The position numbers and the translations under genes were made by a program. A DNA stretch of 35,962 bases from Gemmatimonadaceae bacterium (GTDB lineage Bacteria > Gemmatimonadota > Gemmatimonadetes > Gemmatimonadales > Gemmatimonadaceae). The notes below the pieces were generated by a model that did not search any database, was not told where the DNA came from, and saw only the letters and a program-made list of their open reading frames with translations. Below, in pieces: positions 33,319 through 35,624 of this stretch (positions are counted from its first letter, which is position 1; every line of letters starts with the position of its first letter). The DNA lies in the NCBI GenBank assembly GCA_013697785.1, contig JACCWE010000074.1, positions 1-35,962 on the forward strand, read 5' to 3'.

Positions 33319-33389
33319 TTGCCCCTGGTGGATTCGAACCACCATTCGCGGCTCCAAAGGCCGCTGTCCTGCCGTTGGACGAAGGGGCA
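33319..33389 (-). tRNA. tRNA-Gln (TTG anticodon)
   Basis: A complete 71-nt cloverleaf on the minus strand: acceptor TGCCCCT pairs with AGGGGCA, D-arm GTCC/GGAC, anticodon arm GCGGC/GCCGC with loop CTTTGGA (anticodon TTG), a 4-nt variable loop, and a T-arm GGTGG-TTCGAAT-CCACC. The discriminator base is A, and CCA is not encoded. Confidence 0.97.
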
Positions 33390-33401
33390 CGAGAGCACCC
33401 T

Positions 33402-33430
33402 AAGCTACCGGCCCAGCGAGGGTTGCTCAA
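33402..33430 (-). promoter_or_regulatory. Predicted sigma-70 promoter of tRNA-Gln
   Basis: On the minus strand TTGAGC (33425-33430) and TAGCTT (33402-33407) are separated by exactly 17 nt. Transcription would begin a few nt before the tRNA 5' end at 33389. Confidence 0.5.
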
Positions 33431-33465
33431 TAGGGGTCGATATCTCGAGAGTGAGCGACTGCCTA

Positions 33466-33673
33466 CTGCGGGCACGGATCAGACCAATAAAGACGGATCG
33501 AACCGTGGGGGCAAATGGCTGACGGCCCGCGTCGAGAGCGTGTTTTTTTAGGGGGAACTGCAGGCCAAACCCTTACTTTCGCTATTCCCATTAAAACAAC
33601 CACGACCCGGCGCGACGAGCGATCACCCGCACACGGTTCGATCCGTCGTTATTGGCTCGATCCGTGACCGCAG
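33466..33673. repeat. 208-bp element with 42-bp near-perfect inverted arms
   Basis: Arm 33466-33507 and arm 33632-33673 are complementary at 37 of 42 positions, with one further G-T wobble. The inner 15 (33493-33507 and 33632-33646) are perfect, and a second block (CCAATAA and TTATTGG) follows one mismatch later. The 124-nt interior has a T7 run at 33542-33548 and no open frame. The arms read as terminal inverted repeats of a MITE-like, transposase-less element, or as the closing stem of a structured RNA. No obvious target-site duplication is seen. Confidence 0.7.
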
Positions 33674-33707
33674 CTCGAAGTTCGCCGCTCGCAGTTCGCA
33701 GCTCGCA
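33673..33707. repeat. Five tandem degenerate heptamers
   Basis: The plus strand reads GCTCGAA, GTTCGCC, GCTCGCA, GTTCGCA, GCTCGCA in succession (consensus GYTCGCA), ending 1 nt before the ispE stop codon. Confidence 0.75.
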
Positions 33708-33708
33708 C

Positions 33709-34587
33709 CTACTCGACCAGCTCAACTCCCGCCACCCGCGTCACCGTCCGCGTCGGCACGACCAATCCTGGAAGCGCCCTCGTCAGCGCCGCCGTGTCCG
33801 CGAAGAGGGGAAAGATCCCGAACAACGTGGATCCCGAGCCGCTCATCCCGGCCACTGTCGCGCCGTATTCCCGCAATTGCCCGATGACCGTCGGGATATC
33901 AGGATGGCGCTCTGCTACGACCGGCTCGAAGTCGTTGACGACGTGGGCGTGGAGCGTCTCCCACGACGTCAGCTCCTGCACCGAGACGAGCCGCGGCGAC
34001 GGCACGTCGGTATGCCGCGTCGCGGCGACCCAGCCGTATGCGTTCGCCGTCGGCACCGTGTATTCCGGGAGCACCAGCACCACCGTCCGCTCCGGGAGCG
34101 ACGGGAGCGCGAGCAGTCGCTCACCGCGCCCCCACGCCAGCGCAAACGGCTCGGTGGTCGTGAGGTAGGGAACGTCGGCGCCGAGGGTCATCGCGAGGCG
34201 GAGCAGCTCCGCCTCGGGAAGCGCGCGCGCTGCCAGCGCATTGAGCGCGCGCAGCACCGCGCCCGCATCCGCGCTTCCGCCGCCGAGTCCGCCGCCCACC
34301 GGAATTCGTTTCTCGATGGCGATGTCGAAGCCGCGCGGCCACCCCGTCGCGTCCGCGTATGCGACCGCGGCGCGATACGCGAGATTCTGCTCCTCCGGGC
34401 CGATCTCGACTCCGTGGCAGACGAGCGAACGCTCCTCGTCTCTCGGACGAATCGTGACGGTGTCGGCGAGTGCGATCCGCGCGAACAGCGTCTCGATCGA
34501 GTGATGGCCGCCGCGCTCGCGCGAGAGGATGCGAAGGCCGAGGTTGAGCTTCGCCTGCGCCGCGACCCGCGCGACCTTCGCGCTCAT
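33709..34587 (-). CDS. ispE: 4-diphosphocytidyl-2-C-methyl-D-erythritol kinase
   Basis: 292 residues; phosphorylates CDP-ME in the non-mevalonate isoprenoid pathway. GHMP-kinase motifs: AQAKLNLGLRIL (motif 1, catalytic Lys), IPVGGGLGGGSADAGAVLRA (ATP loop), and GMSGSGSTLFGIF (motif 3). LGADVPYLTTTEPFALAWGRG also fits IspE, although the usual FF-x-x-G is varied. The ATG at 34587 overlaps the stop of the upstream membrane protein (ATGA). The frame stays open to 35568 but that extension is a shadow of the upstream gene. No other isoprenoid gene is nearby. Confidence 0.95.
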   Translation of the reverse strand: MSAKVARVAAQAKLNLGLRILSRERGGHHSIETLFARIALADTVTIRPRDEERSLVCHGVEIGPEEQNLAYRAAVAYADATGWPRGFDIAIEKRIPVGGGLGGGSADAGAVLRALNALAARALPEAELLRLAMTLGADVPYLTTTEPFALAWGRGERLLALPSLPERTVVLVLPEYTVPTANAYGWVAATRHTDVPSPRLVSVQELTSWETLHAHVVNDFEPVVAERHPDIPTVIGQLREYGATVAGMSGSGSTLFGIFPLFADTAALTRALPGLVVPTRTVTRVAGVELVE

Positions 34588-35624
34588 TTCGCGAGCGGCG
34601 CGTGCGATGCTATCTCGTCTTCTTCCTTCGACGCGTTCATGTCGCTGAGCCTGAGGCCCAGCGTGATGAAGTAATAGATGCCGATGATCGTGATCGGCAG
34701 GAAGGTCAGGATGTGGTAGCTGATCGCCCAGCTCGTCGCCAGCGTGCGGTCTATTCCGTAAATCCCGAGCCCGAGCTGCGCGAACTTCTCGAACACGCCG
34801 AAGAATCCCGGAAGCGCCGGCACTGCGACACCGATCGCAATCAGCCCCTGCAGCATGAGCGCCGCGCTGTAGGACACCTCGATGCCCACGGCCTTGAAGC
34901 CAAGCCAGAAGGCGAGCGCGTTCATCAACCACATGATGATCGCCCACGCCATCGTCGACAGGAACTTCACCGGGTCGCGCAGCACGGCGAGCCCCGACGC
35001 GAACGCGAGCAGGATGCGCCGCCCACGCTCTTCGTACGATGGCGCGATCTTGCGCGCGACCCACTCCCACACGAGGATCGCGCGCTCGGTGAAGAAGACG
35101 ATCAGGTAGAGTCCCGAGATGGCGACGAGCGCGAGCGCGGCTCCGCCTCCGATGATCTTCGCGATCGAGTAGCCCGCGAACGTCTCTCCCTTTGGCAGCG
35201 TGGGATCGAGCGTCGCGACTGCCATGAGCAGGAGCACGCAGGTCGCGTCGAAGATGCGGTCGACGGCGAGTGATGCGAGCGCAGCGGAGAACGGAACACG
35301 CTTGGTCTCGCGCGAGAGCGCGAACGCGCGCAACGGCTCGCCCACGCGGGCGGGGAGCACATTGTTTCCCATCATCCCGATCGCGATCGCGCGCCACAGC
35401 ATCCCGAGCGGCAGCCCCTCGGCCACGGGCGAGAGGATGATGCGCCAACGAGGCGCGCGCAGCGGGAAGATCAGCGTACCCGCGACGCTCGCGCCGAGGA
35501 GATACCAGGGATTCGCATTCCGGATGTGCAGCCACACCTGGTCGAACGGAATGCCGTGGAGCGCCCACACGAGAAAGGCGACGCCGACGACAGCGCCGAA
35601 GAGACTACGCCAGTTCTTGCGCAC
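34584..35624 (-). CDS. Flippase-like/UPF0104 membrane protein (lysylphosphatidylglycerol synthase TM-like)
   Basis: 346 residues with seven or eight predicted helices. The family motifs are LRAPRWRIILSP (early cytoplasmic loop), NNVLPARVGEPLRAFALSRE, and VPALPGFFGVFEKFAQLGLG. This domain is found alone or fused in MprF, and solitary forms are thought to move lipids across the inner membrane. The start is a GTG at 35624, which directly follows the TAA of the gene upstream. The C-terminus is acidic (ASKEEDEIASHAPLAK). Confidence 0.9.
   Translation of the reverse strand: MRKNWRSLFGAVVGVAFLVWALHGIPFDQVWLHIRNANPWYLLGASVAGTLIFPLRAPRWRIILSPVAEGLPLGMLWRAIAIGMMGNNVLPARVGEPLRAFALSRETKRVPFSAALASLAVDRIFDATCVLLLMAVATLDPTLPKGETFAGYSIAKIIGGGAALALVAISGLYLIVFFTERAILVWEWVARKIAPSYEERGRRILLAFASGLAVLRDPVKFLSTMAWAIIMWLMNALAFWLGFKAVGIEVSYSAALMLQGLIAIGVAVPALPGFFGVFEKFAQLGLGIYGIDRTLATSWAISYHILTFLPITIIGIYYFITLGLRLSDMNASKEEDEIASHAPLAK

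Follow-up and report, generated by a model that had tools for sequence, protein, structure and literature searches.

Results

The locus between tRNA-Gln and ispE

The window, by which we mean the whole stretch of 35,962 nucleotides that was analyzed, contains a hairpin element of 208 bp between two genes on the minus strand, tRNA-Gln (TTG; 33319..33389, an Rfam match) and ispE (33709..34632), the neighbors that the earlier note had rightly named. The left arm (33466..33507, plus strand) scored 52.6 bits and the right arm, its inverted copy (33632..33673, minus strand), scored 46.8 bits in R1, the arm model of the repeat family that we call family A. The arms of 42 nt are 88% complementary (37/42) and enclose a core of 124 nt (33508..33631), as that note had it, and the T7 run reported inside the core was read in the sequence at 33543-33549. 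This pair was the strongest inverted repeat of the window, other pairs within 400 bp being only 71-73% complementary. The core is partly self-complementary and is without an ORF of note. When folded as RNA, the 221 nt around the element gave -109 kcal/mol (z = -9.6, 0/200 shuffles as good), and the opposite strand of the element gave a z of -8.3. As the core folds too, the element is one long imperfect hairpin, not a pair of arms around an unstructured core.

The stop of ispE at 33709 is 35 nt from the element. In the congener comparison, the whole filled-site stretch of 276 bp (33433..33708) runs from this stop to a block upstream of tRNA-Gln, TATTGAGCAACCC..GGTAGCTTAGGGTGCTCT (33390..33432, minus strand), which forms the other edge of the site, is conserved in all four congeners and is probably the tRNA promoter region. 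The site is filled in the window genome (G000, 276 bp) and in G004, and has only about 36-38 bp in G001 and G003; a search for empty sites in relatives, which had been proposed, thus yielded two congeners without the element at this site. The copy in G004 is orthologous to the window copy, and between these orthologs three positions of the 42-bp stem have changed on both sides (G to A, both arms), so that the compensatory changes the earlier note had asked about are present. The 37/42 pairing is kept in both copies. At the orthologous sites of the window genus, and likewise in Bacteroides, the flanks were too diverged for a target duplication to be read.

Heptamer-like (CTGCGAA)n runs were seen outside the 42-bp arms at 33420-33473 of the window and at the element ends in L010, L011, L030 and L032. 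Given these runs, the true element may be longer than its arms and variable in its ends. A run of seven A or seven T occurs in the core of many elements (window 33543-33549, L095, L098, L103, L030, L100), and a shared motif, GAGAGCGNNNTTTTTTTNGG, holds part of these runs. The T7 region of the window core also has a weakly similar motif in two elements of G001, L095 and L103 (blastn E 0.009 and 0.38).

Family A, a dispersed repeat of one genus

With the element as query, a blastn search of the window's own assembly detected three more places, each of them also a palindrome (106-131 bp). With R1, a sequence-only model built from 16 arms, arm matches numbered 11 in G000, 17 in G001 and 18 each in G003 and G004, which are all of one genus of Gemmatimonadota; there was no arm match in G002, a genome of the same genus that is 68% complete, and the 36 genomes of other genera gave only five borderline matches. 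A match of 27 bp in G+C-rich sequence of G022 was taken as chance. Family A is therefore a genus-specific dispersed family, with element lengths of 94-673 bp and about 5-10 elements in the window genome. A single copy in the genome had been named as evidence against a mobile element, and the element proved to be multi-copy. The MITE-like reading put forward in the earlier note gained from further copies with conserved ends in the window genome and three congeners, together with the empty sites in two of them.

In several elements the palindrome extends over the full length, as in L124 (376 bp, 71% self-complementary over 402 columns). Among 24 two-armed elements, 119 non-consensus bases were shared by an element's own arms, versus a mean of 93 (maximum 117) when arms were paired at random within the same genome in 500 shuffles. 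This sharing of variants within an element means that the arms are either kept complementary or homogenized.

In five family A elements of G001 (L095, L096, L098, L103, L106), another palindrome, built of AACGGAT/CCGTTCGATCCGTT units, lies inside the element and is probably a nested hairpin. It resembles the palindrome that lies upstream of the type II genes described below.

Gene-bearing copies carry GxxExxY

Two elements, L113:799-1375 (G000:C61, 577 bp) and L099:795-1360 (G003:C86, 566 bp), have an ORF of about 140 aa between family A arms. Both ORFs belong to GxxExxY (TIGR04256), with 112 and 99 bits, respectively, at a curated cut-off of 35, and both also match PDDEXK_3 (PF13366). Both arms of either copy match R1, and neither copy was in the R1 training set. 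No other gene-bearing family A copy is known, and the arms of these two belong to the more divergent part of the family. GxxExxY nucleases were the sole genes found inside elements with family A arms; the long copies hold either GxxExxY or no clear ORF, and no classical transposase ORF lay between family A arms in the elements read. The suggestion that the window element was moved by a transposase encoded elsewhere is supported only in part: longer copies do have an ORF between the same arms, but it encodes GxxExxY, not a known transposase, and a classical transposase with these ends was not found. A tblastn search of the window core found no GxxExxY relic.

Five species of the genus carry one to three GxxExxY genes each, and these are of two types. 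Type I lies inside family A arms, and type II is preceded immediately upstream by a palindrome of another, related repeat (AACGGAT...). Type II genes occupy four different places in the five species; the place seems to be the same only in G000 and G004. A gene found at different places across congeners has itself moved, and type II GxxExxY appears to behave like a gene that was moved or replaced. It is single-copy, and its place differs between species of the genus (L146 and L138 versus L137, L139 and L147).

Inverted repeats flank GxxExxY genes in several phyla

Among relatives, 13 of 28 GxxExxY genes had an inverted repeat on their two sides (E<1e-3, within 500 bp), versus 2/84 mismatched flank pairs. 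By the same test none of the 23 ispE loci had a flanking inverted repeat; for ispE the mismatched flank pairs (19/69) carry no information, since its orthologous loci are oriented oppositely to one another. A narrow scan of GTDB genomes gave 203 GxxExxY relatives, the best 80 of which were used. Among these best 80 of 203, flanking inverted repeats were present in 48/79 loci versus 12/237 mismatched-flank controls, or in 21 versus 0 at E<1e-10, and 31/79 genes were without a detectable one. The loci of this set belong to Gemmatimonadota, Bacteroidota, Chloroflexota, Planctomycetota, Cloacimonadota and others. Their arm sequences are lineage-specific, and many are made up of short (A)CGCGGAT(T)-type units in tandem; the window arms contain ACGGATC units too. 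The pairing of this gene with long inverted repeats across several bacterial phyla suggests that these are bacterial mobile elements of a kind not yet described.

Bacteroides provided an independent case. In Bacteroides faecis (L234), a GxxExxY gene with the ends TTAGGCACGGATTACGCGGATTACACGG...CCGTGGAATCCGTGTAATCCGTGCCTAA lies between the apparent murG and murC genes. The corresponding spacer of relatives contains a hairpin remnant lacking the ORF in G081, a decayed hairpin in G102 and only half an arm in G103, and in others there is nothing similar. At twenty further arm places in seven genomes there was no GxxExxY gene, and nearly all were hairpins of 68-100 bp with the same ends. A 20-nt arm pattern matched the B. 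faecis genome 99 times, 50 times in forward and 49 times in reverse orientation, as against 1 match for the control; this amounts to about 50 ORF-less hairpins with the same ends, beside 2 GxxExxY genes. In two phyla, and with different arms, there are thus few gene-bearing copies and many ORF-less hairpins sharing their ends. No target duplication was evident when the flanks of 18 Bacteroides hairpins were compared, and these hairpin sequences appeared in no paper of the open-access literature searched. The hairpins L305-L324 are about 80 bp long (TTAGGCACGGATTACACGGATTTCACGG...CCGTGCCTAA), number tens per genome and lie at intergenic, A/T-rich sites.

Carriage by phages or plasmids was considered and rejected: GxxExxY was found neither in IMG/VR (pattern scan) nor in INPHARED, and only in 8 of 72,556 plasmid records. 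Hairpin matches occurred in 13 faecal 'phage' records, which are short unannotated contigs and possibly bacterial.

Predicted structure of GxxExxY

The AlphaFold2 model of GxxExxY, based on 57 sequences, has a mean pLDDT of 90.5 and a PD-(D/E)XK fold. A search by sequence found no relative in the PDB. The nearest solved fold was that of SSO0001 (4ic1; Z 10.2 over 102 residues, rmsd 3.8), which we take to be a Cas4-type nuclease; next came PD-(D/E)XK folds of restriction-enzyme, Cas4 and Hjc type at Z 6-8 (Hjc 1gef, Z 7.2), where values under 8 are not specific. D70 and K82 are invariant in the 57 sequences and E80 is nearly so. With these catalytic residues kept, the active site appears to be intact.

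GxxExxY is a widespread, essentially unstudied protein family of unknown function. In the open-access literature searched, the family name occurs once in each of two papers, in at least one of them in passing, and PF13366 occurs in one paper; within that literature we found no paper that links GxxExxY to palindromic elements, so that priority is not certain.

Elements lie at gene 3' ends

By raw count with a rough ORF caller, 24 of 25 family A elements are within 50 bp of a gene 3' end, the gene being ispE at 35 nt for the window copy. None of the 25 lies between divergent genes, and between co-directional neighbors the stop of the one gene is closer to the element than the start of the other. 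Selection against promoter insertions explains part of this bias, and targeting of gene 3' ends is possible. Placed in this way, family A copies will presumably be transcribed together with the upstream gene.

At gathering score, Rfam 15 recognized only tRNA-Gln in the window stretch and no family for the element. Across 40 element loci scanned with Rfam, an RNA gene lay beside the orthologous copy L030 only, and no rRNA was found in the window or at these loci. The earlier note had regarded a position next to a tRNA gene as typical for insertions; the tRNA is incidental here, the common trait being a place just 3' of a gene, and a link to tRNA insertion was rejected on the ground that the other loci have no RNA gene. 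Its alternatives of a large RNA or an ispE 3' structure fared no better, there being no Rfam match, no element at the same site in two congeners and many copies at unrelated loci. A conserved regulatory RNA of ispE or tRNA-Gln is unlikely because of these empty sites and dispersed copies. Three short terminator-like sites were found in the region, versus 0.5 expected; they correspond to small lateral stems of the core and do not involve the main hairpin.

Discussion

MITEs are ORF-less derivatives of insertion sequences. Family A resembles them in size (100-400 bp), in its terminal inverted repeats, in the empty sites of relatives and in the longer ORF-bearing copies with the same ends; both dispersed copies with conserved inverted ends and empty sites were found. 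It differs in that neither a DDE transposase nor a demonstrated target duplication accompanies it, and in that the palindrome often takes up the entire element. REPINs, which go with RAYT (Y1) transposases (PMC3116915), are likewise short hairpins of inverted pairs, intergenic and genome-specific in sequence; a genome has many ORF-less copies but a single nuclease gene or a few, and the copies share their ends with the gene flanks. Family A has such extragenic inverted doublets and few nuclease genes per genome. In contrast to the Y1 HUH enzyme of the REPIN system, the protein here is of the PD-(D/E)XK type, the gene within the arms matching PF13366/TIGR04256 only; the arms measure 40-90 bp as against 20-40, they enclose the gene in gene-bearing copies, and the copy number is low, at about 5-10 in the window genome.

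The intervening sequences of 23S rRNA with an S23/IVP ORF have a long terminal stem, an optional small ORF and a sporadic distribution (PMC4990558). They are similar to family A in being selfish hairpins, a few hundred bp in length, whose long ends are complementary and which may contain a small ORF, and different in that family A lies outside rRNA and carries GxxExxY, not the four-helix-bundle IVP. No S23/IVP ORF (TIGR02436) was found between family A arms, and neither the window element nor the 40 loci lie in helix 9, 25 or 45 of 23S rRNA. Cas4-like and Holliday-junction PD-(D/E)XK nucleases share the predicted fold of GxxExxY, yet identity is only about 20% and no sequence relative exists among the PDB entries. 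By analogy, the family might work like a REPIN/RAYT or IS/MITE pair while looking like a 23S intervening sequence outside rRNA, and it lacks a defining feature of both REPIN/RAYT and the 23S intervening sequences.

Considering these results, we regard it as fairly probable that the window element is an ORF-less MITE- or REPIN-like copy, mobilized in trans, of a mobile element built as long arm, GxxExxY gene and inverted arm. This reading starts from what was observed, namely dispersal, empty sites, ends shared with gene-bearing copies, co-variation of the arms, the general pairing of the gene with inverted repeats and position at gene 3' ends; that GxxExxY drives the movement, we infer. Neither a movement event nor an intermediate or a target duplication was seen. 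Extruded as a cruciform, a long palindrome makes up a four-way junction; in the lagging strand it folds into a single-strand hairpin. A nuclease gene beside such a palindrome suggests that the arms are the substrate of GxxExxY. In the model we propose, GxxExxY made from gene-bearing or solo copies would act in trans: it would recognize the folded arms as a cruciform or a single-strand DNA hairpin and cut at or beside them, after which the hairpin could be copied or transferred elsewhere in the genome. Gene loss would leave short hairpins; as the window core holds no gene remnant, a simple internal deletion is only a possible origin of the window copy. Once inserted and transcribed with ispE, the copy would be a stable double-stranded RNA and a likely substrate of RNase III, with little or no host function.

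More tentatively, and with chances that we put a little below even, GxxExxY may mobilize long imperfect palindromes as the nuclease of a whole class of hairpin mobile elements, so far undescribed and spread over several phyla. Abundant ORF-less hairpins such as family A and the Bacteroides GGCACGGATTACACGGATT repeats would derive from this class, and the IVP elements, which share the architecture, would be its sister class. The occurrence of GxxExxY inside long inverted repeats in several phyla, along with ORF-less hairpins of the same ends, gives this protein family a testable role. If the proposal is true, a new class of nuclease would join the DDE and Y1 transposases among the movers of bacterial miniature elements, and many unexplained intergenic palindromes would be accounted for, including about 50 per genome in a human gut Bacteroides.

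Another enzyme (a classical or Y1 transposase) or template switching during replication could instead have mobilized the repeat, with GxxExxY as a passenger, which we consider rather unlikely. IVP/S23 four-helix-bundle genes (TIGR02436), which do not encode nucleases, show the same architecture in these genomes even more often (21/27 versus 0/81 controls), so that in either kind of element the ORF may simply ride along as a passenger, as the IVP gene in 23S intervening sequences may do as well. Homogenized arms are also expected from template switching in a palindrome, and the tandem units at arm ends would fit slippage. Against this, none of the elements read has a transposase ORF between family A arms, and GxxExxY has kept its active site and recurs within unrelated arms in several phyla, as a passenger need not.

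It is improbable that the element is a host-useful RNA or an ispE 3' hairpin which shields the end of the mRNA, terminates transcription or keeps ispE and tRNA-Gln apart. The distance of 35 nt from the ispE stop, the strong bias of the family to gene 3' ends, the retention in G000 and G004 with three compensating stem changes and the excess of terminator-like sites would all suit such a role, but those sites are short side stems in the core, the same site is empty in two congeners, and copies that match no Rfam family are dispersed at unrelated loci.

Highly improbable is a family of 23S-type intervening sequences that spread beyond rRNA by movement at the RNA level and is tolerated through RNase III excision: it would share the architecture of a long terminal stem with an optional small ORF and a sporadic distribution (PMC4990558), and IVP genes do occur in inverted repeats in these genomes, but no family A element lies in rRNA, no IVP ORF lies between family A arms, and there is no sign of an RNA intermediate. 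Among the IVP/S23 loci themselves (L156-L185), which are outside rRNA, those 21 of 27 have long flanking inverted repeats, many of them made of heptamer-like tandem units such as GAGAGTT and TGCAGAG.
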